A stretch of DNA of 64,000 bases from Halomonas salipaludis. GTDB lineage: Bacteria; Pseudomonadota; Gammaproteobacteria; Pseudomonadales; Halomonadaceae. Location: NCBI RefSeq assembly GCF_002286975.1, contig NZ_NSKB01000004.1:62001-126000 (forward strand). Direction: 5' to 3'. The position numbers and the translations under genes are program-made. Below the pieces are notes generated by a model. That model saw only the letters and a list, made by a program, of their open reading frames with translations. It was not told where the DNA came from and did no database searches. Positions within the stretch are counted from its first letter, which is position 1; each line of letters starts with the position of its first letter. Below, piece by piece: positions 19,812-32,037 of the stretch.

Positions 19812-21317
19812 TTAATGTGCCGCTGCACGCGCCTTGAGGCGCTGCCGCACGACCTTCAGAATCGGTGATATCACGGCGAGCAGGGTAATTGCCGCCAGCC
19901 CCATCGACAGTGGGCGTGCCACCAGGGCGCTCCACTCACCCTGACCGATCAGCAGCGCCAGGCGCAGGTTGGACTCAGCCATGGTGCCCAGCACCACGCC
20001 CAGCACCACCGGTGCCAGTGGGTACTGCATGCGGTCGAGAAATACCCCCACCACGGCAAAGGCCAGCAGCAGGAACACATCGAACATGCTGTTATTGACC
20101 GAGTAGACCCCGACGATGGTCAGCGAGAAGACGATCGGGATCAGTAGCAGCGGCGGCAGCTTGAGAATCTTGACGAATACCCGCGACCCCAAGTAGCCAC
20201 CCAGCACGATCAACAGCGCCGCAGTGATCAGCATCTGTAGCATGAAGCCATAGACGATCTCGCCACTATCGCGAAACAGCGCCGGCCCGGGTTGCAGGCC
20301 ATGCACCAGCAGGCCACCGAGAATCACCGCCGAGACGGAGCTACCGGGAATCCCCAAGGTGAGTGCCGGCACCAGAGCGGCGGCATTATCGGCGTTATTG
20401 CCACACTCGGCAGCGGCTACGCCCTCTTCGGCACCGTGGCCGAAGCGCTCAGGTGTTTTCGAGGCGCGCTTGGCCTCGTTATAGCTCATGAACGAGGCCA
20501 TATTGCCACCGGCCCCGGGCAGGATCCCGACCACCACACCGATCAGCGAGGAGCGCAGCCAGGTAGGCCATAGCAAGCGATACGGTACGCGCTCGGACTG
20601 AGCAAGATCTAGCCTGGCCTCCTGTACCGGCTTGCGTTCACGCACCGCTCGTTCGGCCAGGCGCAGCGTCGGCGGGATACCAAACAGACCGATCAACACC
20701 ACGACGATATGGAAGCCACCGGTCAGCTCACTCTGGCCGAAGGTCAAGCGGCCAGCCCCTGATACAGTGTCGATCCCGACCATGCCGATCAAGAGCCCTA
20801 TGGCAGCCGCCACGATCCCCTTCCAGGGATCGTTGCCGACAAGCACTGCGATGCTCGCCAGGCCAAAGAAGGCAACCCAGAAGTAGTCGGCGGGCCCGAA
20901 AGCCAGCGTTACCCGCGAGAGAGGTGGCGCCAGCGTAATCAACGCTACCGCACTGGCAATGCCGCCGATGGCAGAGGAAACCACGGCAATTTTCAGCGCT
21001 AGCGGCGCGCGGCCCTGGTCCGACATCGGGCCACCATCAAGAATCGTCGCAACCGAAGCCGGCGTACCAGGAATCCGCAGCAGAATCGAAGGGATCGCGC
21101 CACCATACATAGCACCATTATAAATACCGGCCATCATGCCCAGCCCCACCAGCGGGTGCAGCCCAAAGGTCAGCGGGATCAGGATGGCGATGCCCATGGT
21201 CGCGCTGAGGCCAGGGAGCGCGCCGATGCATATCCCCAGAATCGTGCCGCCCACCATGGCCAGCAGGTTTTCCCACTCGAGGATTAGTACGAGAGACGTC
21301 GCAAGTGAATCCAGCAT
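19812..21317 (-). CDS. tctA: Tripartite tricarboxylate transporter, large permease TctA
   Basis: 501 residues, about 12 membrane helices. TctA hallmarks are GALPGLSATMGIAILIPLTFGL, the GIYNGAMYGGAIPSILLRIPGTPAS block and GSSVSAVILGGLLVHG. It works with TctB and the periplasmic receptor TctC to import di- or tricarboxylates. It is last of the tctCBA group read leftwards from a CoA-transferase/lyase pair, which implies that the imported acid is activated to a CoA thioester and cleaved. Confidence 0.95.
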   Translation of the reverse strand: MLDSLATSLVLILEWENLLAMVGGTILGICIGALPGLSATMGIAILIPLTFGLHPLVGLGMMAGIYNGAMYGGAIPSILLRIPGTPASVATILDGGPMSDQGRAPLALKIAVVSSAIGGIASAVALITLAPPLSRVTLAFGPADYFWVAFFGLASIAVLVGNDPWKGIVAAAIGLLIGMVGIDTVSGAGRLTFGQSELTGGFHIVVVLIGLFGIPPTLRLAERAVRERKPVQEARLDLAQSERVPYRLLWPTWLRSSLIGVVVGILPGAGGNMASFMSYNEAKRASKTPERFGHGAEEGVAAAECGNNADNAAALVPALTLGIPGSSVSAVILGGLLVHGLQPGPALFRDSGEIVYGFMLQMLITAALLIVLGGYLGSRVFVKILKLPPLLLIPIVFSLTIVGVYSVNNSMFDVFLLLAFAVVGVFLDRMQYPLAPVVLGVVLGTMAESNLRLALLIGQGEWSALVARPLSMGLAAITLLAVISPILKVVRQRLKARAAAH

Positions 21318-21334
21318 GTCGTTCTACCGCCTCC

Positions 21335-21826
21335 TCAACGCAGGAAGAATTCTCGCGGCAGGGGCCGCTCGAAGACCCCGATGAAAATCAGATACAGCAT
21401 GCCCAGCACGATCGCTGCATTAATGGCGATGCCCAGCAGGTGGCGATAGCCGAGAGCATAAGGCAGCGCCAACAACATCAAGCCCGTAGCGGAGAAGAAC
21501 CCCAAGGGACGCACTAGCAAGGCGTAGAGCAGCAGCCCCACCGCAGCGATCAGGATCTGGCGCAGCGCCAACCAGTCTTCGCGCTGCCACTGTTTGCGTG
21601 GCGCCGTCCATAGGCGGTGGCGAAGGAGCAGCAGCGCCTTGAGCCCGAGACCCAGCGAACCGAACAGCATGACTGCGCCGATCAACATCGGAAACATGCC
21701 GCTGTCACCCCGCAGGGTGGTGCCGTAATAGAACACCGAAACTGCCAGTAAGCCGGTGATCAGCGACGAGACGGCATCGCGTCTCGCGGCTCCGATCTCA
21801 CCCCTTTCTTCGCTCAACTCACTCAT
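21335..21826 (-). CDS. tctB: Tripartite tricarboxylate transporter, small permease TctB
   Basis: 163 residues with four hydrophobic segments (SLITGLLAVSVFYYGTTL, MFPMLIGAVMLFGSLGLGL, ILIAAVGLLLYALLV and the C-terminal pair), as in TctB. The ATG at 21826 is preferred to an in-frame GTG at 21835. It lies 17 bp upstream of tctA and 66 bp downstream of tctC. It completes the membrane complex. Confidence 0.88.
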   Translation of the reverse strand: MSELSEERGEIGAARRDAVSSLITGLLAVSVFYYGTTLRGDSGMFPMLIGAVMLFGSLGLGLKALLLLRHRLWTAPRKQWQREDWLALRQILIAAVGLLLYALLVRPLGFFSATGLMLLALPYALGYRHLLGIAINAAIVLGMLYLIFIGVFERPLPREFFLR

Positions 21827-21892
21827 GAGATACACCCGTTATGCATGCCAATGAGCGCGGCAGCCGCCGCGTTCGTGAGTGGGATGGCGGCA

Positions 21893-22861
21893 TCACTCCG
21901 CCCAGGGGTCCTCGTCCCAGATCGCCGACATCTCGGTATAGGTTTCATCGATCAGGGCTGCGTACTCGTCGGGAGCCATATAGTCCACCAGCAGTAACCG
22001 ATCGTCAGCGCTGGCCAGGAACGCATCGCTTTGCACCGCTTGTGCGACAGCGTCGACCAGCGCGTCTCGCACCTCGTCAGGTAGCCCGGCCGGCGCCATC
22101 AACCCACGGTAGGAGCCCGCCACGATCTCGGTGCCCACCTCGCCCATGGTCGGCACATCGGGCACCAGATCGATGCGCTCGGCAGCCATTACGCCGAGGA
22201 TCTTGAGTTCACCGTCGTTATGCAGCGGGCCGGCTTCACTGATGCCCATTACGCTGGCATCGACATGGCTACCCAGCAGCGCGGCGCGGCTCGGCGCGCC
22301 GCCAGCAAAAGGAATGTGATTAACGCTGAGGTCCGAAGCGCGCAAGAAGCGGATTAGCGCGGTATGCATGGCGCCACCGCCACCCGAGTTGCCCACCGAG
22401 ACGCTGCCAGGGTTCGCCTCGACGTGCGCCATCCACTCCTCAAGACTGTTATGAGGACTGTTCGCCGGCACCACCACGGCCCCCGGCTCGGTCACCACGT
22501 TGGCCAACAGCTGAAAACTATCGAGATCGTAGGACGGGGAACGCTCGATCATCGGGTTGAGAATCGACGGTACATTGATGATGCCAATGGTGTAGCCGTC
22601 CGGATTGGCGTCGGCCACCGCCGTAAAGCCAATCTCGCCACCGCCCCCCGGACGGTTTATCACCGCGATCCGAGTGCCCTCGCCCAGCGCCTCCTCAATG
22701 TGCGGCGCCAAGGAACGGGCCAGCACATCGGAACCACCGCCGGCCGAGTAGCCGACGACCATTTCGATATTGGCACTGGGATAGTCGGCCTGGGCCGACA
22801 CGGCGAACCCGGCCGCCATCGCGCCGGCAAGAAGCGTCTTGGTAAGTGTGATGCGTGGCAT
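21893..22861 (-). CDS. tctC: Tripartite tricarboxylate transporter receptor TctC (Bug family)
   Basis: 322 residues. The signal peptide ends at AQA about residue 24. The mature domain has YPSANIEMVVGYSAGGGSDVLARSL, VINRPGGGGEIGF and NPDGYTIGI, all Bug-family ligand-pocket features. It binds the carboxylate in the periplasm and presents it to TctAB. The start follows AGGAGATATACT. It is probably under the IclR-linked promoter at 25 kb through the two genes upstream. Confidence 0.93.
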   Translation of the reverse strand: MPRITLTKTLLAGAMAAGFAVSAQADYPSANIEMVVGYSAGGGSDVLARSLAPHIEEALGEGTRIAVINRPGGGGEIGFTAVADANPDGYTIGIINVPSILNPMIERSPSYDLDSFQLLANVVTEPGAVVVPANSPHNSLEEWMAHVEANPGSVSVGNSGGGGAMHTALIRFLRASDLSVNHIPFAGGAPSRAALLGSHVDASVMGISEAGPLHNDGELKILGVMAAERIDLVPDVPTMGEVGTEIVAGSYRGLMAPAGLPDEVRDALVDAVAQAVQSDAFLASADDRLLLVDYMAPDEYAALIDETYTEMSAIWDEDPWAE

Positions 22862-22934: not shown

Positions 22935-23765
22935 TCAGCCGTTACTTACATTGCGGGATACTTGCCCGCGGTAGTCCCACAGCCAGCCCTTGGGCATCGG
23001 GCCCTTGTTGCGCCCTCCCTGGCACTGCTGCTCCCAAGCGTGAGCAAGAATGCCCACGCTGCGCGACAGGCAGAACAGCCCCCGCGCCAGCGGCGCAGGA
23101 AATCCCAGCTCGGCATGGATCACGGCCGTGGCCCCGTCGATATTGAGCGGAATGGGCTTGCCCTTCTTCGCCTGCAGCTGACGCTCGATCTCACGTGCGA
23201 TACCGGCATAGGTGCCGCTCACTTCGCCGCGCTCGGCGGCATCATCGACCAGCGCCAAAAGACGCGGCGCCCGCGGGTCGACCGGGTGAAAGCGATGCCC
23301 GAAACCCGGCACGATCTTGCCGTGCTCCGCTCGCCACGCCTCTAGCCCCTGCGCCACGACTTGCGGCAACGTCCCGCCTTCCTGCAGCCGCCCCTCAATG
23401 GCGCGGTACAGCTCGATCGCCTGCTCGCCAGCCCCGCCATGGATGTCATCGAGCACGTTGATCGCCGAGGCCATGGCATTGTTGAGGCTGCCACCACAGG
23501 TCATCGCCATACGCGCAATCGCAATGCTCGGCGCTTGGGGGCCATGGTCCACCGCCCCCACCAACGTGGCCTCGAGCAGCGCTGCCTGGGCGTTGCTAGG
23601 CAACTCGCCACGTGTCATCAACCACACCATCTCGGCGAAGCCAACACGGCCGATCAGCTGCTCGATGGGATAGCCGTGGTAGCGGATCTCGCCTGGGCGC
23701 ATATCGATGATCTCGGTCTGCCACCAGTCGGCAGCCTGGGTATCGAGCGTCGTGGTCTCTGACAT
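22935..23765 (-). CDS. Citrate-synthase-like citryl-CoA/(acyl)malyl-CoA lyase
   Basis: 276 residues, much shorter than citrate synthase (about 430) but with the citrate synthase catalytic set: His109 in DDIHGGAGE, His157 in GFGHRFHPVDPR and Asp210 in PLNIDG. Proteins of this size beside TctABC and a CoA-transferase are annotated as citryl-CoA lyase, cleaving citryl-CoA or a related hydroxyacyl-CoA to acetyl-CoA plus an oxoacid. It lies 11 bp downstream of the CoA-transferase. Substrate (citrate, citramalate or similar) is inference. Confidence 0.82.
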   Translation of the reverse strand: MSETTTLDTQAADWWQTEIIDMRPGEIRYHGYPIEQLIGRVGFAEMVWLMTRGELPSNAQAALLEATLVGAVDHGPQAPSIAIARMAMTCGGSLNNAMASAINVLDDIHGGAGEQAIELYRAIEGRLQEGGTLPQVVAQGLEAWRAEHGKIVPGFGHRFHPVDPRAPRLLALVDDAAERGEVSGTYAGIAREIERQLQAKKGKPIPLNIDGATAVIHAELGFPAPLARGLFCLSRSVGILAHAWEQQCQGGRNKGPMPKGWLWDYRGQVSRNVSNG

Positions 23766-23776
23766 CGTTATCTCCG

Positions 23777-24952
23777 TTAGCTGTCGCGGTGTGTGGCGGG
23801 CATGGGCGTGGCACGGCCCAGCAGGCGCGCATTGTCGGCGCCCAGCCGAGGCGGCGGAGTCGCCACCCGCGGCGCCTGGCCGTCGAAGCGGTAGCCGCCG
23901 CTAACCACTTCGAGCGGTCGCCCAATACCGCTATCGTCGAAACGTTCGATCAAGCCGCGGTCACGCACCTGAGGGTGCGCCAGCGCCTCGGCCACGCTAT
24001 ACACCGGCCCCGCAGGCACGCCGACGGCCACCAGCGCTTTCCACCAATGCGCCGTGGTCGCGCCTGCCAGAGCCGACTCGATCAGCTCGGCCAGTGCCTG
24101 GCGGTGCTCGAGACGCGCCTGGCGCTCGGCGAAGCGCGGATCAACGATCAACTCCTGGCGGCCGACCACTCGGCACAGCGCCTCGAACTGCTCCTGTTTG
24201 TTGGCGGCGATATTGAGCAGGCCATCCGCGGTGCGAAAGGTGCCCGAAGGGCTGGCAGTGACGTTGTCGTTACCCAGAGGGCCGGGCGCACGATCAGCCA
24301 CCAGTAGGTTGGAAACTGCCCACCCCATGGTCGCTAGCACCGAATCCAGCATTGATACATCGATAAAGTGTGCCTTGCGTGGCGTTTCGGCCAGAGCGGC
24401 ATTGATGGTCATAGCGGCAGTCAGCCCACCGATGGTATCGGCCAACGGGTAGCCCACCCGATATGGGGCGTTATCCGGAGCGCCGGTGATGCTCATCACC
24501 CCCGACATGCCCTGGATGATCTGATCGTAGGCGGGATAGTTGGCCAGCGGTCCATCCTGGCCAAAGCCGGAGATGGCGCAGTACACCAACCTTTCATTGA
24601 CGGTTTTCAGATAGTCGAAAGCGAGCCCCAGGCGCTTCATCACGCCGGGGCGGAAGTTCTCCACCAGCACGTCGGCGTTGGCGACCAGCTCGATGAAATG
24701 AGCGCGATCGCTTTCCTCCTTGAGGTCTAGGGTAACCGAGCCTTTGCCCGCGTTCTGGGCCAGAAACGATACCCCCATCAGCTCACGATTGAGGGCAGAG
24801 TCGGCACCGAGCTGACGGGCCAAGTCGCCACCCTGAGGCCGCTCCACCTTGAGGACTTCTGCTCCCAGGTGTGCCAACTGGTGGCAACAAAAGGGGCCCG
24901 CCAACACATTGGTCAGATCCAACACGCGGACGCCGGTGAGCGGCTTCGACAT
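23777..24952 (-). CDS. Class III (CaiB/BaiF) CoA-transferase
   Basis: 391 residues: MSKPLTGVRVLDLTNVLAGPF opening, KVERPQGGD, AQNAGKGSVTLDLK, LVENFRPGVMKRLG and YPLADTIGG, where Asp172 matches the catalytic Asp of formyl-CoA transferase. It would move CoA, probably from succinyl-CoA or acetyl-CoA, to the imported carboxylic acid for the lyase downstream. The start at 24952 has GAGGGAA upstream and lies at the edge of a 104-bp control region that is repeated 1964 bp away. Confidence 0.92.
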   Translation of the reverse strand: MSKPLTGVRVLDLTNVLAGPFCCHQLAHLGAEVLKVERPQGGDLARQLGADSALNRELMGVSFLAQNAGKGSVTLDLKEESDRAHFIELVANADVLVENFRPGVMKRLGLAFDYLKTVNERLVYCAISGFGQDGPLANYPAYDQIIQGMSGVMSITGAPDNAPYRVGYPLADTIGGLTAAMTINAALAETPRKAHFIDVSMLDSVLATMGWAVSNLLVADRAPGPLGNDNVTASPSGTFRTADGLLNIAANKQEQFEALCRVVGRQELIVDPRFAERQARLEHRQALAELIESALAGATTAHWWKALVAVGVPAGPVYSVAEALAHPQVRDRGLIERFDDSGIGRPLEVVSGGYRFDGQAPRVATPPPRLGADNARLLGRATPMPATHRDS

Positions 24953-25053
24953 ACAATTCCCTCTAGCAGAATTTATTTCGCTAGACGGAATATAAATCAT
25001 CCATTCCGCCCAATGCAATGCGTTCTACCCATCGCTATACTAAGGTCTAATCA
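24950..25053. repeat. Divergent control region, copy 1 of a direct repeat
   Basis: Aligns without gaps to 26914-27017, about 79 of 104 bases identical by eye. Conserved blocks are ATTCCCTCT, GGAATATAA, ATTCCGCC and a 14-base block ending CGTTCTA. Leftward promoter: TTGCAT, 18 bp, TATATT. Rightward promoter: ATGCAA, 17 bp, TATACT; the two -35 elements overlap. ATTTC-N7-GGAAT and GGAAT...ATTCC inverted repeats over the leftward -10 look like an IclR-type operator. The left promoter serves the CoA-transferase operon; the right one now faces no intact gene. Confidence 0.8.
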
Positions 25054-25145
25054 GGAAAATATGTCACTGAGGATGACGACCCTCGCTCGAGCGTTGGGTA
25101 AAACGTAAAGAGAGGTCCGTTCAGTCGGGACGCCGCCTTGGGCGA

Positions 25146-25847
25146 TCAGACCGGGCAACCTTTCTGGCGCAGACTTGCATCGAAGCGCTCGGTATCCAGC
25201 TTGCCGGCTTCGTTCTCAGCGCGGATGCGCGCTTCTTTTTCCGCATGAGCTTGGCACTGGGCCAGGATGGCCTCGGCCTCGTCGGCAGGAATTGCGATGA
25301 CACCATCGGCATCGCCGAGAATCAGGTCGCCAGGCTGGACAGACAGACCGGCGCAAGCGATCGGTACATTGACCTGCCCCGGCCCCTCCTTGCTGGGGCC
25401 GCGGTGGGTGTGACCGAGCGCGTAGACAGGCAACCCACCTTCCGCCCACTCGGCAACATCGCGTAGAACACCATCGATCACGAAGCCACCCAGCTGTCGA
25501 GAGATCGCCGTTGTGCGCATCAGGCCACCGGTAACGGCCGTGGAGAGGTCTCCGCCGCCATCGATGACGATGATGTCGCCCGGCTGGGCCCGCTGCATTG
25601 CGGCATGAACCATAAGGTTGTCGCCGGGACGAGTACGCACGGTAACCGCGGGGCCGCACATCGTGAGGCCAAGATCGTTGTGGTAGGCCCGTAATCCCAC
25701 CGTCCCGGTATGGCGCCCCATCACGTCGCCGGCATGCGCTACGGGCACCCGACGAAAGGCGTTTACCAACGCCGTGGTTAGCGTGGTGCGGCGCGGATGG
25801 ATATAAAAACCCATTGGCCAACGCCCAGTCTCGGTGTTCGCACTCAT
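25146..25847 (-). CDS. RraA-like 4-hydroxy-4-methyl-2-oxoglutarate aldolase/oxaloacetate decarboxylase
   Basis: 233 residues. The RraA fold shows AGDVMGRHTGTVGL, GDIIVIDGGGD and FVIDGVLRDVAEWA, with Arg129-Asp130 matching the substrate Arg and metal Asp of class II HMG aldolase, and DLILGDADGVIAIP. Such enzymes cleave HMG or oxaloacetate-like acids to pyruvate with a divalent metal. Its start overlaps the stop of the dehydrogenase gene by 4 bp (ATGA). It forms a two-gene cassette flanked by the repeated control region. Confidence 0.88.
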   Translation of the reverse strand: MSANTETGRWPMGFYIHPRRTTLTTALVNAFRRVPVAHAGDVMGRHTGTVGLRAYHNDLGLTMCGPAVTVRTRPGDNLMVHAAMQRAQPGDIIVIDGGGDLSTAVTGGLMRTTAISRQLGGFVIDGVLRDVAEWAEGGLPVYALGHTHRGPSKEGPGQVNVPIACAGLSVQPGDLILGDADGVIAIPADEAEAILAQCQAHAEKEARIRAENEAGKLDTERFDASLRQKGCPV

Positions 25848-26815
25848 GGTGTTGCCTCCAATAAGTCTTCGTTGACAATCCGCCCATGCGCGGGACGCTG
25901 TCCGACCAGCATGGCCAAGGCGTTCTCTGCGGCAGCGCGAGCGGTCCATGCCAAGGCGGCATCACTGTTTCCTCCCACATGGGGCATGATGACCACCTGG
26001 GGCATCTGTAATAGGCGATGCCCGGGGTGGGCCGGCTCTTCGGCCAGGGTGTCGAGCCCCGCTCCCCGGAGATGGCCACTGGCAATGCTCTCGGCCAGTG
26101 CATCCTCGTCGACCAGCCCACCGCGTGCGGTGTTGATGACGATCGCTCCGGGGCGCAACGCAGCAAGTGCTGTCGTATCCATCAAGTGGCGTGTCTCAGG
26201 CAGCAGAGGGCAGTGCAGGGACACCACATCGCTTGCGGCTAGCAGCTCCATCAGGCTTGCTGCCTGGCGAACGCCGTCATGCATCTCGCCTACTGCTGGG
26301 TCATAGGCCATCACGTGCATACCGATGGCGCTGGACATGCGTGCGACATGTCGAGCGATGACGCCATACCCCACGAGTCCCAATGTACGGCCGGAGAGCT
26401 GCATACCAGGGGCTTGTCTTGGCCACTCTCCTGCACGCACGCGTTCGCTAAGCGTTGGGATGTCGCGGGCTACCGCGAGCATCAAGCCGATAGCGAGTTC
26501 TGCTACTGACTGTGCATTGGTACTCCCCACCACTGTGACGGGAATATTGCGTTCCGCTGCGGCTTGAATGTCCACGGCATCGTGACCGACGCCATGACGC
26601 GATATCACACGTAGCCCTTGGCATGCGGTAATCGCCTCTCGCCCAATGGGCAGCGTGCGCGCTATCACCGCGTCAATGGGCTGGCTGGACATGATGTCGA
26701 CGAGGAGATCCTCCTCGCCGAGTGGGATGAACAATAGGCGGCAACCGGCTTGTTCCAGCACCTCCAGTCCATCTTCAGCCAAGCGCGGCGCAGTAATCAG
26801 AACGGTGTAGCTCAT
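25844..26815 (-). CDS. D-isomer-specific 2-hydroxyacid dehydrogenase
   Basis: 323 residues. The NAD-binding motif is GLVGYGVIA, with catalytic Arg in NTARGGLVDE, Glu in LAEEPAHPGH and His in MPHVGGNS, all in the usual order for SerA/hydroxypyruvate-reductase-type enzymes. It interconverts a 2-oxoacid and a D-2-hydroxyacid with NAD(P). It is coupled to the RraA-like aldolase by 4-bp overlap, so the pair probably converts a hydroxyacid to an oxoacid that the aldolase cleaves. A short leader ORF ends across its start codon. Confidence 0.92.
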   Translation of the reverse strand: MSYTVLITAPRLAEDGLEVLEQAGCRLLFIPLGEEDLLVDIMSSQPIDAVIARTLPIGREAITACQGLRVISRHGVGHDAVDIQAAAERNIPVTVVGSTNAQSVAELAIGLMLAVARDIPTLSERVRAGEWPRQAPGMQLSGRTLGLVGYGVIARHVARMSSAIGMHVMAYDPAVGEMHDGVRQAASLMELLAASDVVSLHCPLLPETRHLMDTTALAALRPGAIVINTARGGLVDEDALAESIASGHLRGAGLDTLAEEPAHPGHRLLQMPQVVIMPHVGGNSDAALAWTARAAAENALAMLVGQRPAHGRIVNEDLLEATP

Positions 26816-26916
26816 CGCTTACCCTCTGCATATATCACCATCCAAGGGTCATGACCTGTTGGCTTCGAACGGCGCGAGCTTGCCTGGGGATGCTGGTGAA
26901 TAAGTGGTTTAGACAT
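26812..26916 (-). CDS. Hybrid leader ORF (34 aa) coupled to the hydroxyacid dehydrogenase
   Basis: Starts with the same first codons (MSKPL) and the same GAGGGAATT ribosome binding site as the CoA-transferase, being the copied 5' end of that gene, then diverges (IHQHPQASSRRSK...) and stops at a TGA overlapping the dehydrogenase ATG (ATGA). It would place ribosomes at the dehydrogenase start. Probably a by-product of the control-region duplication rather than a functional peptide. Confidence 0.5.
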   Translation of the reverse strand: MSKPLIHQHPQASSRRSKPTGHDPWMVIYAEGKR

Positions 26917-27017
26917 GAAATTCCCTCTGACAGAATACATTCCACCAGAAGGAATATAAGGCAAAAATTCCGCCTGTTGCAATGCGTTCTATCCGGCGAC
27001 ATACTAAAGTCTGATCA
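26914..27017. repeat. Divergent control region, copy 2 of a direct repeat
   Basis: Direct-repeat partner of 24950-25053 at an offset of 1964 bp. Both promoters look intact: leftward TTGCAA, 18 bp, TATATT into the dehydrogenase-aldolase genes; rightward TTGCAA (26977), 17 bp, CATACT (27000) into the IclR gene. A perfect inverted repeat ATTCC-N7-GGAAT, followed by a second ATTCC, covers the leftward -10 region and is the probable IclR operator. Confidence 0.8.
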
Positions 27018-27030
27018 AAGGAGAGATACC

Positions 27031-27681
27031 ATGGCCGAGCAACGCGTCGAATCCGTGGAGCGTGCCCTGACCCTGCTCAACGCCTTTCGCGCTGATAAAC
27101 CAGCCTGGACTCTGGCCGAGCTGGCTAACGAAACAGGGTTCTACAAGAGTACTATCCTGCGCTTGATGGGCTCGCTAGAACGCTTCGGTTACGCCCAGCG
27201 CGACCGTGATGGTCTCTACCACCCCGGGCCGGCCCTGCTGCGGCTGGGCCAACTAGGGCAGACAAGCGTCAGCCTCGAGGCAGTGGTTAGGCCGATACTG
27301 GAACAGCTACGCGACCAAACACGCGAGACCGCCTCGTTTTTTATACGCGATGGCGACGAGCGAGTGTGCCTATACCGCGAGAACGGCCGCCATGAGGTGC
27401 GCCATCACGTTGAGGAAGGGGCGCGTCTAGCGCTGGGCCAAGGTGCCGCCGGCCTGGTGCTCGCCCACCCTAGCCCGCAGCGTGGCGAGGTCATTCACTC
27501 TTTTGGCGCCCGCGAAGCCAGCCTGGCAGCGATTGCCGTTCCCATCATCGACAGCCGTGGCAAGCTGCACGGCGCACTGGCCATCTCGGGACTGATCAGC
27601 CGCTTCGATGACGACGCCTGTGTGCGGTTTGGAGAGGTGCTCAAGGAGAAAGCCGTTCAACTCGAACGGCAGATTGGGTGA
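27031..27681 (+). CDS. IclR-family transcriptional regulator
   Basis: 216 residues. The N-terminal winged helix-turn-helix (residues about 5-65: SVERALTLLNAF, WTLAELANETGFYKSTILRLMGSLERFGY) is followed by a ligand-binding GAF-like domain (VRPILEQLRDQTRETASFF, IAVPIIDSRGKLHGALAISG). The ATG at 27031 follows AAAGGAGAG. It is divergent from the dehydrogenase-aldolase pair, and the copied control region links it to the CoA-transferase operon too. It is the likely ligand-responsive regulator of the whole 19.8-27 kb block. Confidence 0.92.
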   Translation: MAEQRVESVERALTLLNAFRADKPAWTLAELANETGFYKSTILRLMGSLERFGYAQRDRDGLYHPGPALLRLGQLGQTSVSLEAVVRPILEQLRDQTRETASFFIRDGDERVCLYRENGRHEVRHHVEEGARLALGQGAAGLVLAHPSPQRGEVIHSFGAREASLAAIAVPIIDSRGKLHGALAISGLISRFDDDACVRFGEVLKEKAVQLERQIG

Positions 27682-27693
27682 CAGGGACTGATA

Positions 27694-28284
27694 TTATCGT
27701 TCAGCATGTGCCTGGTAAGTGTTAATCGAGCTTGGCGGCTCATCACTTGCCAGTCTTCCATACAGTGCGGAGTCGGAAACAAATCCATTGACTTCCCAAC
27801 GCTGCCTAAGCAGGCCCTCTTTAGTGAAACCGAGTTTTTCCAGAGCCTTCGCCGAGGACTGGTTTTCTGGATCAATTTCAGCCTCAATGCGGCGCAGCCC
27901 TAATGCATCGAAGCCGTAGTCAATCAATACTTCACCTGCCTCACTGATATAGCCTTTCCCCCAACAAGAGCTGCTCAATCCAAAACCGATTTCAGCACGC
28001 CTGGACTCTTTATCATAATTGAAAAGCATGCATTTCCCAGCCAACGTCCCATCAGGTTTCAAATATATACCCAGGACAAGGGACTCTTGACGCCACATAG
28101 AGTCGTTGCTGCTATTTATAAAGTCAACAGCATCTTGAAGATTCGTCCAGGGTGCGGTGTTCCAGTATTTCATCACCTCAGGATCAGAGAATATTTCCAG
28201 TAAACCTTCCGATTCATTGATGGCTAGTGGCCGCAACGTTAATCGATCTGTCTCAATCACCGGGAAAAACACTTCTTCGGACAT
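27694..28284 (-). CDS. GNAT-family N-acetyltransferase (RimJ/RimL-like)
   Basis: 196 residues. It opens IETDRLTLRPLAINESEGLLEIFSDPEVMKYW, then has the acetyl-CoA loop region CWGKGYISEAGEVLIDYGFDALGLRRIEAEIDPENQSSAKALEKLGF, typical of RimJ/RimL-type acetyltransferases acting on small molecules or N-termini. Base composition is clearly AT-richer than the flanks, with codons such as ATA and AGA, which suggests horizontal acquisition. The ATG at 28284 is preferred to the longer frame. It converges with the IclR gene. Confidence 0.9.
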   Translation of the reverse strand: MSEEVFFPVIETDRLTLRPLAINESEGLLEIFSDPEVMKYWNTAPWTNLQDAVDFINSSNDSMWRQESLVLGIYLKPDGTLAGKCMLFNYDKESRRAEIGFGLSSSCWGKGYISEAGEVLIDYGFDALGLRRIEAEIDPENQSSAKALEKLGFTKEGLLRQRWEVNGFVSDSALYGRLASDEPPSSINTYQAHAER

Positions 28285-28380
28285 ATATTCTCCGACTGGA
28301 TATGCTTTTTTCAGCTTAGTTATACGCCACCATGATGATGTCAAGCTATGCCATGGGTAGCAACTGTTTGTCACTGCCCA

Positions 28381-29049
28381 CTAGCCTTCCCGCTGCAGCT
28401 TCGCGCGCCGCGCGACTTCTGCCGGCGTCGGGGGATCCATGCCGAAGTCACCGGTTTCAACCCTGCCTTGGCGCAGGTACTTGGCAATCACAATACCGTT
28501 GGGCGATACGCGATGGGTCGCGAGCCGATACGCCGCAGCACTCGCAGCGTCGTCGAACAGCCGCTTGCCGCGGCCGAGCACCACGGGGAAGGTAAAGGTA
28601 GTGATCTCATCGACGAGGTCGCTGGCAAGCAGCGTCTTAACCAGCCCAGAGCTGCCTTGCGTGAGTAGCGCAGGCCCCTCCTCCTGCTTCAGCCTGGCGA
28701 CCTCGCTCGCCGCATCGCTCAAGACCACCGAGCCCTCCCAGGTCAATGCCAGGCCCTTGCGAGTCGCAACATACTTGTTGATCGAGTTGAAGGTTCTGGC
28801 GATGGCATCGTCAGGCCCCTGCTCGGCATACGGCCAGTGCGCGGCGAAGATCTCGTAGGTCTTGCGCCCCAATAGCAGATCGAATGGCTGGCTGAACAGC
28901 TTGTCGATCTCTTCTCCAAATACCTCGTCCGCCAGCGGCGCGACCCAGCCACCGTAGCGGAATCCGCCGGTCGGGTCCTCCTGCGGCCCACCAGGGGCCT
29001 GTATCACGCCGTCGAGCGACAGCATGGCGCCAACGATCACCTTGCGCAT
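28381..29049 (-). CDS. Dihydrofolate-reductase-family protein (RibD C-terminal domain)
   Basis: 222 residues, opening MRKVIVGAMLSLDGVIQAPGGP, with DLLLGRKTYEIFAAHWP, NKYVATRKGL and GSSGLVKTLLASDLVDE, the DfrA/RibD-C fold seen in many small oxidoreductases of unknown substrate. AGGAGG precedes the ATG. Base composition is GC-rich like the core genome, unlike the GNAT and YciI genes on either side. No functional partner is evident. Confidence 0.9.
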   Translation of the reverse strand: MRKVIVGAMLSLDGVIQAPGGPQEDPTGGFRYGGWVAPLADEVFGEEIDKLFSQPFDLLLGRKTYEIFAAHWPYAEQGPDDAIARTFNSINKYVATRKGLALTWEGSVVLSDAASEVARLKQEEGPALLTQGSSGLVKTLLASDLVDEITTFTFPVVLGRGKRLFDDAASAAAYRLATHRVSPNGIVIAKYLRQGRVETGDFGMDPPTPAEVARRAKLQREG

Positions 29050-29445
29050 AAACTCATCCTCCTGGTTGGCTGCTACCCCCCGTAGTCGAATGAGGCATCA
29101 CGGAATCGACACAGCCTGCTTGTCGAATGCTGAAGCGGCGGGCTTCTTGGCCAGCAGCGATGCTTTCAACAAAGATGTGCGAGGCTCGCTGTGCACAACG
29201 CAAAGTGCAAGTGAGTGGCCCCCGACGAACGAGCCCCTCACCCGAATGCACTGTGCGCCCTGCTTTTACTACCGAAGCGCCGCCGATAGCCGGGATCACG
29301 CCAATGACGAGTCAGAAACTCTTGGAACACGGAATCTTTACAACCGTCGGAAGCCCTGAAAGGCACCGAAACGCCCCGTTACACGCAAGTAGCAGTGAGT
29401 GGAAAATTCTAGGATGCCCCGATACACATTATCCTTCATGTTCCA
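29050..29445. other. Intergenic stretch without a supportable gene
   Basis: About 400 bp between the reductase and the YciI gene. Open frames on both strands are short and lack ribosome binding sites or recognisable motifs. No hairpin with a T-run, tRNA or insertion-sequence end was seen. It may be degraded DNA at the edge of an acquired segment. Confidence 0.5.
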
Positions 29446-29733
29446 TCAGTCTAGAAGAAAGTTCAGCCTCTCATCAGTCTTCTTCGGGTCAATTTCGAGT
29501 ATTTCTGCGGTAACAATATTTTCTGCTACAAAAGGATCCTGATTGACACGGTGTTCAAGGTCTTCGCGTGAAATGCCATGAGCCATAATAGAGCCGCCTA
29601 GGCTGGGCTTGAGACTACCGGCCATCAAGAAAACACCATCCTCGAATCCACTCTTTATCCATTGATTGTGTAACTCCATGAAGGCACTTGCCTGGCTTTT
29701 ATTTTCCGAAAACCGTAAGAGAACGATAAACAT
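29446..29733 (-). CDS. YciI-family protein
   Basis: 95 residues: MFIVLLRFSENKSQASAFMELHNQWIKSGFEDGVFLMAGSL, with the family pattern of an early LHxxW and a later DPF (NQDPFVAEN), typical of YCII ferredoxin-like-fold proteins with a conserved His-Asp pair. Function is poorly known in the family. Its start overlaps the stop of the TetR gene by one base, so the two form an operon. It is AT-rich compared with the core. Confidence 0.88.
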   Translation of the reverse strand: MFIVLLRFSENKSQASAFMELHNQWIKSGFEDGVFLMAGSLKPSLGGSIMAHGISREDLEHRVNQDPFVAENIVTAEILEIDPKKTDERLNFLLD

Positions 29734-30326
29734 CAGGACACCTCCGATTTAGCATTTCTATGACGTTCAAGAGAGATTAGCCATTCATTCAGGCGACCTA
29801 CTTCGCTACTGATGAACTCTTCGTCCTGGAAAGCACTAGCTAGTGTCGCCACCCCCTGACTGGCTGCCAGAAGGTGCATTGCCAGCTGGTCAGCATCACC
29901 GTGACGACCAAGCAGTTCAAACTGCCGTCGCAACCAGGCTCTGAAAAGAGTGAACAGTTCATTGGCATTGCTCTTGGCAGGATGCTCCAGTTTGGCGAGC
30001 TCCGAACAGAGTGTGCCGACCGGACAGCCATAGCGCTTAATCTTTGCCCGATTCATGATCAGAATATTGATAAAGCTTCTAATTCGGTCACCAGGGGAAT
30101 CTCCTTGCACTTCCCACTCCTCCAGCATTGATCTCGTACGGGCCAAACGACGATTGATTACACTATCAAGGATTTCGTCCTTGGTCTTGAAGTGATAGTA
30201 GAAGTTTCCGCGGGAAATGCCTACGGCTTCCGCTATTTGTGAAAAAGTAGTGTGCTCAAAGCCCTGCTCATAGAACAGTTGATCCGCTTCAGCGATGATG
30301 CAGTCTCTTGTCTGCGTGTTGGCCAC
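29733..30326 (-). CDS. TetR/AcrR-family transcriptional regulator
   Basis: 197 residues. N-terminal helix-turn-helix: FEHTTFSQIAEAVGISRGNFYYHFKTKDEILDSVI. The helical C-terminal region is that of the YciI/TetR-linked group (MEEWEVQGDSPGDRIRSFI, CPVGTLCSELAKL). It is the first gene of a two-gene operon with yciI-like. Two 16-bp inverted repeats 30-75 bp upstream of its start are probable autoregulatory operators. The sequence is AT-rich, suggesting acquisition with the yciI-like gene. Confidence 0.92.
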   Translation of the reverse strand: MANTQTRDCIIAEADQLFYEQGFEHTTFSQIAEAVGISRGNFYYHFKTKDEILDSVINRRLARTRSMLEEWEVQGDSPGDRIRSFINILIMNRAKIKRYGCPVGTLCSELAKLEHPAKSNANELFTLFRAWLRRQFELLGRHGDADQLAMHLLAASQGVATLASAFQDEEFISSEVGRLNEWLISLERHRNAKSEVS

Positions 30327-30357
30327 CAGAACACTCCTTTCTTATCACCCGAGCATG

Positions 30358-30400
30358 TAGGACGCTCATCCTATATAGCAAATCTAGGACAAGCGACCTA
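30358..30400. promoter_or_regulatory. Tandem TetR-type operator
   Basis: Two related 16-bp sites, TAGGA-N6-TCCTA (30358-30373) and TAGG-N8-CCTA (30385-30400), both reading TAGGAC on the left, are centred 27 bp apart. They lie directly upstream of the tetR-yciI operon, as expected of a self-repressing TetR protein. Confidence 0.65.
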
Positions 30401-30560
30401 ATGCGTCAAGCGGCAGACGCCGCTCTTTTACATTAGCCTGGGTAGTAGCGTGCTGGCTGCAAAGAGGTGAAGTGCAGGCCAACGCAACTCGCCCCGCCAT
30501 GTAGCATGGCGAGGCGAGATGGTGGGCAGGCTGCCCAGTAGCTGGTGAAGTCGCAGCCGG

Positions 30561-32012
30561 CTAGCCGTTGACCGCCTTGGCGATGCGCTCGCCGATGTCC
30601 TGGTCGATGTTGCGCCAGTATTGGATGGCACGTTCCAGCACCTCGGGGGAAACGCCATCCTTGAGGTGGCCGCTGGCGTTATTGACCAGCCGCTCGCGCT
30701 GGGCGTCGTCCATCACCTCGTTGATCAGGGTATTGGCCTGGCTGACGTCGTCATCGTCCGGGCGCAGGGTATAGGCGGCACGCACGAATTCTCCGTCGGC
30801 TGCCCAGGTGGTGTCCTCGGGGTAGCGTTCGGGGTCGGCGTGGGGGCCACCCTTGCTGTTGGGCGCATAGACCGGGTCGGTGACATTGTGCATGCGCATG
30901 GCACCGTCCTTGCTGTAGCTGTGCACCGGCACCTTGGGCGAGTTGACCGGGATATGCTTGTAGTTGACCCCGAGCCGCGCGCGATGGGCATCGGCGTAGG
31001 AGAAGCCGCGGGCCAGCAGCATCTTGTCCGGGCTGAGGCCGATACCAGGCACCAGACTATTGGGCTCGAAGGCGGCCTGTTCGATCTCGGTGTGGTAGTC
31101 GGTGGGGTTGCGATCCAGCGTCAGTCGGCCCACTTCGTGCAGCGGGTAGTCGCCCTTGGGCCACACCTTGGTGAGATCGAAGGGGTTGATGCGGTAGGTC
31201 TTGGCGTCGTCGAACGGCATGATCTGGACCTTGAGCGTCCAGCTCGGGTGGTTGCCGTTCTTGATGGCGTCGTAAAGGTCGCGGGTATGGTAGTCGCCAT
31301 CGGCACCCGCCAGCTGATCGGCCTCTTCCTGGGTCAGGCACTCGATGCCCTGGTCGGTCTTGAAGTGGTACTTGACCCAGAAGCGCTCGCCCTTGGCGTT
31401 GACCCACATATAGGTGTGGCTGGAGTAGCCGTTCATGTTGCGCCAGGTCTTGGGAATGCCACGATCACCCATCAGCCAGGTGACCTGGTGGGCGGACTCC
31501 GGCGAGAGCGTCCAGAAGTCCCACTGCATGTCGTGGTCGCGCAGGTTGGTGTCGGCGCGGCGCTTCTGGGAGCGGATGAAGTGCTGGAACTTCAGCGGGT
31601 CGCGGATGAAGAACACCGGGGTGTTATTGCCCACCATGTCGTAGTTGCCCTCGGAGGTGTAAAACTTGAGGGAGAAACCACGCGGGTCGCGCCAGGTGTC
31701 GGGGCTGCCCCGCTCCCCCGCCACCGTCGAGAAGCGGATCAGCGTCTCGGTGGTGGTGCCGGGCTGGAACACAGCGGCCTTGGTGTACTGGCTGAGGTCC
31801 TGGGTCACCTCGAAGCGGCCGAAGGCACCGCCACCCTTGGCGTGGGGCTGGCGCTCGGGAATCCGCTCGCGGTTGAAGTTGGCCATCTGCTCGATGAGGT
31901 AGTGGTCGTGCAATACGAGCGGGCCATCCGGGCCTACGCTGAGCGAGTGCTCGTCGCTTGAGACCGGGATTCCTGCATCATTGGTGGTCGGTTTGCGGTC
32001 ATCGCTAGTCAC
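30561..32012 (-). CDS. katA: Monofunctional haem catalase
   Basis: About 483 residues, a small-subunit clade catalase. The active-site His region is [14 protein letters not shown], the distal Asn region [15 protein letters not shown], and the proximal haem ligand lies in [15 protein letters not shown] (Tyr near residue 340). It breaks down hydrogen peroxide in the cytoplasm. The start is taken as GTG at 32012, seven bases after AAGGAGG, instead of a TTG six bases earlier that sits on the ribosome binding site. Two perfect inverted repeats lie in its leader. No other oxidative-stress genes adjoin it. Confidence 0.94.
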
Positions 32013-32037
32013 GGTCAATCCTCCTTGTCTGAACGCG

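Follow-up and report, generated by a model that had tools for sequence, protein, structure and literature searches.

Two copies of an iclR/caiB control region bracket a dehydrogenase-aldolase gene pair in Halomonas salipaludis

Introduction

Why should the divergent control region of a regulator gene stand twice in one locus, once on either side of a pair of enzyme genes? The question is raised by a 64,000-nucleotide (nt) stretch of Halomonas salipaludis DNA (RefSeq assembly GCF_002286975.1, contig NZ_NSKB01000004.1, positions 62,001 to 126,000 of the forward strand), here called the window. Within it, the genes for a D-2-hydroxyacid dehydrogenase and an RraA-like aldolase (the pair) lie between a gene for an IclR-family regulator (iclR) and a CoA-transferase gene (caiB), and similar blocks of DNA flank the pair. 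All coordinates are counted from the first letter of the window. We consider it probable, judging from the sequence, that one IclR controls both operons from the two blocks, and that an ancestral iclR/caiB divergon was rearranged so that the pair came to sit between two control regions.

Results

The control region occurs twice

The blocks at 24939-25053 (copy A, on the caiB side) and 26903-27017 (copy B, located by repeat search between the dehydrogenase gene and iclR) form a direct repeat, a single 115-nt family with a spacing of 1964. A direct ungapped count gives 87/115 identical positions (76%), and the runner-up ungapped 115-mer on either strand of the window reaches only 52/115; a chance alignment is thus not borne out, and the repeat is real. 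A 131-bp copy-A query matched two places in the window's own genome at E <= 0.001, namely itself and copy B (1.1e-16). The longest identical run shared by the copies is 14 bp. Both include the first five codons of caiB (MSKPL), and their similarity ends directly past these codons, with 6 of 33 further bases identical. A preliminary description of this DNA had reported a gapless 104-bp block, repeated 1964 bp apart and about three quarters identical, which included the first five CoA-transferase codons and ATTCC/GGAAT inverted repeats. The repeat, its spacing and its identity hold, and the codons and such inverted repeats are found in both copies, but the block is 115 bp long.

Gene order in relatives

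Of 275 genomes of the family, 38 encode this IclR at E 1e-45 or better, and gene order was examined in 35 of them, in stretches of ~3.5 to 17 kb; G200, G201 and G209 were left out of the count. In 28/35 genomes, iclR is directly divergent from caiB with a single control region. These comprise 23 genomes with a short arrangement of caiB and a citryl-CoA lyase-like gene (CCL), where the distance from start codon to start codon, both included, is 120-222 bp, and five genomes of genus g11, where iclR is directly divergent from the longer run caiB-CCL-dehydrogenase-RraA-Tct, Tct standing for tripartite tricarboxylate transporter genes. One of the 23 short-arrangement relatives, G216, also belongs to g11. 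The pair stands between two control blocks in 2/35 genomes, that of the window (G000) and that of a congener (G003). A second congener, G004, has iclR directly divergent from caiB with one block and without the pair. The single-block divergon that the preliminary description predicted for relatives is hence the state of 28 of the 35 genomes, G004 included. No caiB was found in the 1.5 kb beside iclR in the other 5/35 (L006, L007, L031, L032 and L033). In two further genomes, G001 and G002, IclR found nothing at E 1e-30, and CaiB matched at 39% and 38% at best.

The regulator and its candidate operators

The iclR gene (27031-27681, plus strand) encodes a protein of 216 amino acids (aa), which belongs to the IclR family by its scores with HTH_IclR (PF09339, 51.0 bits against a cut-off of 22) and IclR_C (PF01614, 53.3 bits against a cut-off of 24). 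The PcaR/PcaU/PobR subfamily model (TIGR02431) is its nearest model only, at 101.6 bits against a cut-off of 284.75. At E 1e-30, the window IclR has one match in its own genome.

Each block carries two operator-like inverted repeats of the form 5-7-5, that is, O1 (24956-24972) and O2 (24975-24991, 19 bp from O1) in copy A, and O1 (26920-26936) and O2 (26939-26955, with fully complementary half-sites) in copy B. The corresponding 17-bp pattern, RTTYY-N7-RRAAY, is found twice at a distance of 19 bp, close to the start of caiB, in 22/23 short-arrangement relatives, each site with no more than one mismatch and O1 at the same position in all 22. Both repeats match the pattern exactly in blocks A and B of G000 as well as of G003. 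They were not found in the control region of G088 (L038), though iclR is divergent from caiB there. Across 32 control regions (L034 entered as two copies; repeat fetches of the same places, L035-L040 and L089, dropped), we counted 104 sites of the 5-7-5 form when one mismatch was allowed (shuffled mean 8.5, maximum 16) and 56 exact sites (shuffled mean 0.6, maximum 5), counts that measure recurrence and place and are no independent test, since the pattern was defined on these same regions. Column conservation in 22 relatives, taken without G088, which lacks a site, and without the five g11 regions that have the pair in line and other spacings, was 1.57 bits in the half-sites, 1.10 in the cores and 0.08 in the stretch separating O1 from O2. 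A stricter O2-type pattern matches the genome at three places, of which two are inside these blocks; a backward-read control matches at two. The five g11 control regions (L081-L085) carry GTTCT-N7-AGAAC sites at spacings unlike those of the other relatives, two per region with fully complementary half-sites.

According to the survey by Suvorova and Gelfand (2021, PMC8222616), IclR group-1 sites are 17-18 bp long, with 5-bp half-sites 7-8 bp apart and tandem centres 18-22 nt apart. O1 and O2, 19 bp apart in both copies, have this form, given a pattern that was defined on these regions.

Two promoter-like sites can be read in copy B. One, TTGCAA-18-TATATT (26953-26982, minus strand; 9/12 in the scan), points toward the pair, and the other, TTGCAA-17-CATACT (26977-27005, plus strand; read from the sequence), points toward iclR. 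They share a palindromic TTGCAA that, as its own reverse complement, could act as -35 box in both directions. The inverted repeats overlap the leftward -10-like TATATT and the leader, an overlap that would fit repression.

We propose that an ancestral iclR/caiB divergon with a single shared control region was rearranged in one genus such that the dehydrogenase/RraA pair came to lie between two copies. Copy A would drive caiB, CCL and the transporter genes leftward, and copy B would drive the pair leftward and iclR rightward. IclR would bind each copy and repress both operons together, or switch them in response to a ligand, and at copy B it would act likewise on iclR itself. With no iclR to serve, the iclR-facing end of copy A would be decaying, and the caiB-start part of copy B would now serve the pair alone. 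Binding by IclR, the sign of regulation, the effector and the shared pathway are all predictions. The inverted repeats in both copies and the single IclR match in the genome support the earlier suggestion that both operons are under one IclR.

Divergence of the two copies

Over the block, copies in the same position are 86/105 (A) and 84/104 (B) identical between G000 and G003, and A and B inside one genome are 80/105 and 79/104 identical. The A copies of the two genomes group together (bootstrap 86). Base 25013 is A in both of them and T in the other five sequences compared, and the palindromic TTGCAA of copy B reads ATGCAA in copy A of both genomes. The duplication likely preceded the split between G000 and G003.

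The two halves of the block have fared differently. On the caiB side, copy A is conserved (40/44 between G000 and G003; 38/44 between G000 A and G004), whereas copy B, where this half faces the dehydrogenase gene, has drifted (32/43 and 33/44, respectively). At the iclR end, copy B is conserved (39/41 between G000 B and G004; 36/41 between the B copies) and copy A has drifted (31/41 between the A copies). Thus, it is the half still in use that each copy keeps best.

Several observations weigh against the proposal that one IclR serves two operons from two copies of an ancestral block. The B copies form no clade in the maximum-likelihood tree (supports 36 and 42), and grouping within genomes is not rejected by the approximately unbiased (AU) test (p 0.098), though the preferred grouping is by position. 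The single blocks of G004 (86/105) and G097 (84/105) are as close to G000 B as G003 B is (84/104). The full consensus GKTYCRYW3-4RYGRAMC of PMC8222616 is reached at the 5% level against shuffles in only 4/32 regions, with 3 mismatches in copy A (20/300 shuffles as good) and 5 in copy B (251/300). The leftward promoter match in copy B is no better than chance (one in the scanned stretch, 1.0 expected), and the promoter scan of 24900-27100 reports neither the iclR promoter nor a copy-A counterpart.

Origin of copy B

The preliminary description had the pair inserted together with a duplication of the control region. Its single-divergon ancestor and the two blocks agree with what we found, but copy B resembles the start of a once-translated caiB more than a bare copy of the control region. 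Between the copies, the five caiB codons show four differences, all at synonymous third positions (1 in 495 if they fell at random among 12 bases), a pattern that, like the CCL resemblance described below, was noticed first and tested afterwards. Synonymous-only differences, with similarity that ends right after the codons, suggest that a translated caiB gene once began in copy B, and we regard this as probable. More tentatively, the pair itself may derive from an operon that had it downstream of a citryl-CoA lyase gene, as the five g11 genomes do.

Copy B also opens a 34-aa open reading frame (ORF; 26812-26916, minus strand), whose first codons are the five of caiB and whose end overlaps the dehydrogenase gene in an ATGA; it is probably a relic. 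We rejected a conserved leader peptide, because in G003, where the leader is about as long, neither start nor frame is preserved.

We give just short of an even chance to an origin in which two complete clusters were reduced. Another iclR-caiB-CCL-dehydrogenase-RraA unit, its genes ordered as in the five g11 genomes, would have stood in tandem with the resident caiB-CCL-Tct operon, after which the redundant caiB and CCL of one and the iclR of the other were lost. The control region would then not have been copied as an isolated piece, and the present regulation would be the same as proposed above. Such a history would explain the synonymous-only codon differences, since copy B would have stood for a time at the start of a gene under translation, and it accords with the iclR-like Shine-Dalgarno stretch that copy A of G003 still has and with the uninterrupted caiB-CCL-dehydrogenase-RraA run of the five g11 genomes, where CCL ends in the same ATGA overlap as the leader ORF does here. 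In G000, moreover, the leader tail in the ATGA-overlap frame resembles the C-terminus of the g11 CCL, with an equal offset from the start of the dehydrogenase gene (3/2000 shuffles as good); a single one of the window's 440 ATGA sites reaches this score, necessarily the site itself.

This resemblance is nevertheless only suggestive. It is weaker in G003 (65/2000 shuffles; 19/440 ATGA sites), and when the last 16 bases are kept, the protein-level counts rise to 26/2000 (G000) and 296/2000 (G003). At the DNA level, 162/2000 (G000) and 25/2000 (G003) shuffles are as good, and in an unanchored search of leader against CCL, 63/3000 and 441/3000, the best hit in G000 lying elsewhere, so that this search yielded no reliable match. 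Furthermore, two complete clusters in tandem were not seen in the stretches of ~3.5 to 17 kb from the 35 examined genomes. The codon pattern and the leader tail lean toward a reduced tandem of two clusters over the copying of a bare control region, a preference that we hold at roughly even odds.

Is the left side of copy B in use?

A different possibility is that the left side of copy B is a relic, with the pair transcribed from another promoter or outside IclR control altogether and copy B used by iclR only. The drift of the left half (32/43 between G000 and G003) and the leader ORF, which is not preserved in G003, speak for it. However, O1 and O2 have outlasted the drift in G000 and G003 alike, the half-sites of O2 being fully complementary, and the scan of 24900-27100 gave no other promoter-like site. 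We consider this possibility improbable and prefer the proposal that copy B serves the pair as well as iclR.

Presence and absence of the pair

By rpoB and gyrB, G000 and G004 are sisters (support 100), yet G004 is without the pair. In its block, the caiB half resembles copy A and the iclR half copy B, as might be expected if the two blocks were a recombination module between which the pair is gained or lost, G004 being the excised state. However, the mixed pattern is equally expected of an ancestral block. Moreover, with a longest identical run of 14 bp, the copies as they now stand are unlikely to allow excision. When IclR and CaiB are joined, G000 falls with G003 and the species topology is rejected (AU p 0.042), which points to exchange of the whole allele, although either protein alone does not reject it (p 0.201 for IclR, 0.095 for CaiB). 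CCL prefers the species topology, and CaiB and CCL joined give a support of just 59 for G000 with G003. Raw identities of the G000 proteins barely distinguish the two congeners, at 84.4% to G003 and 85.1% to G004 for CaiB, and 84.9% and 84.7%, respectively, for IclR. The higher G+C content at third codon positions of these genes in G004 could disturb the trees.

Along the locus, in windows of 130 to 400 bases, identity between G000 and G004 is 89-96% in the 3.4 kb left of the cluster, 82-94% in the transporter genes and CCL, 80-87% in most of caiB and 79-95% in iclR. Given the conflict between joined IclR and CaiB and the species markers, whole-allele exchange through the flanking genes accounts for the pair-less G004 as well as excision does. 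The recombination between repeats by which, in the preliminary description, the pair would be excised is not supported, in view of the short identical run and the conflicting flanking genes, and we give a recombination module a low probability, a shade below that of a relic left side of copy B.

A last alternative, in which neither block was copied from the other and both operator regions became similar by convergence because one IclR binds them, draws on the recurrence of IclR sites within regulons (PMC8222616) and is very improbable, given a gapless 115-bp alignment that includes five caiB codons and an iclR-facing stretch useless to copy A.

The enzyme genes and their neighbours

All enzyme and transporter genes of the locus lie on the minus strand. 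The dehydrogenase gene (25844-26815) was recognized by PF02826 and PF00389, and the RraA-like aldolase gene (25146-25847) by Pfam, with the PRK06201 subfamily model above cut-off. The caiB gene (23777-24952) encodes a family III CoA-transferase, with Pfam above cut-off and seven NCBIfam models matched, all below their cut-offs. CCL (22935-23765; NF004864 above cut-off) follows, and downstream of caiB-CCL lie the transporter genes TctC, TctB and TctA (19812-22861), TctC and TctA by profile and TctB by position and size only.

Relatives of the dehydrogenase with 65-83% identity occur in 6 other genomes among the 275 of the family. At 65% identity or more, they stand beside RraA and the iclR/caiB cluster in 7/7 genomes, the window's included, and since they always adjoin these genes, the pair is probably part of one pathway with caiB, CCL and the transporter. 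Among 390 genomes drawn evenly from the order, with at most 5 candidates scored per genome, only the window genome gave a match at E 1e-85. A wider contig scan for the source of the pair, from which the record of the window, or records very close to it, may be missing, gave two Halomonas records at 72% and then none above 47% among the best 80 of 234 matches. A more distant dehydrogenase/RraA pair (43-47% and 60-63% identical) lies near a TctC gene in G088, G108 and G208 (L086, L087 and L088). No caiB match was found in the 12-14 kb around these pairs; the pair thus recurs with this type of transporter.

The surroundings vary among the congeners. Between copy A and RraA, G003 has an amidohydrolase gene, which we take to be dihydroorotase-like, and luxS (L034:6278-8376), both in the direction of the iclR-ward half of copy A. 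The palindrome GTTATGTTATAATATAAC ahead of these genes resembles a Zur box. Right of iclR, the window (27694-32018) holds a GNAT-like gene (assigned by eye), a TetR gene, others and then a catalase-like gene (by eye). A counterpart of the latter follows iclR almost directly in G003, and other genes are found there in G004.

Discussion

The relatives present several states in the rewiring of one operon, since iclR and caiB may form a single divergon, the pair may be placed in line within the operon (five g11 genomes), or it may follow a second control region (G000 and G003). These states allow a direct test of whether duplicated operators are kept by selection while the gene-less halves of the promoters decay. 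The locus is a real, informative and neat variant of known regulatory evolution, unsurprising in kind and no new kind of system. Judged by title, the open-licence literature gave no pertinent case of duplicated control regions around inserted genes, which is no proof of absence.

A fuller history can be offered only tentatively, with the chances somewhat against it as a whole. The pair may have come under an existing regulator by way of a second copy of that regulator's divergent control region; the copies may have divided the work by halves, each decaying on its gene-less side while the operators were kept; and recombination within iclR and caiB on either side may have carried the allele from one species to another. 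As for function, a plausible scheme would have tri- or dicarboxylates taken up, CoA transferred, and the product cleaved by the lyase to acetyl-CoA and an oxoacid, to which the pair would add oxidation of a 2-hydroxyacid and aldol cleavage.

Three known arrangements invite comparison. The single-block iclR/caiB-CCL divergon (e.g. in G004, G097 and G122) likewise has a related regulator, a CoA-transferase, a citryl-CoA lyase-like gene and the inverted repeats, but it has one control block and, unlike the window, lacks the dehydrogenase/RraA pair. The g11 run caiB-CCL-dehydrogenase-RraA-Tct shares the whole enzyme set and a divergent IclR gene, with the dehydrogenase 65-72% and RraA 77-79% identical, and differs in having all genes behind a single control region and in the lower identity of CaiB (59-61%) and IclR (47-48%). 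With the tandem palindromic operators of IclR group 1 (PMC8222616), the locus shares 17-bp sites with 5-bp half-sites, their centres 19 bp apart here, and the regulator gene stands divergent from its presumed target. Unlike those systems, however, the locus matches the full published consensus only in part and has the whole control region twice, bracketing an enzyme pair.

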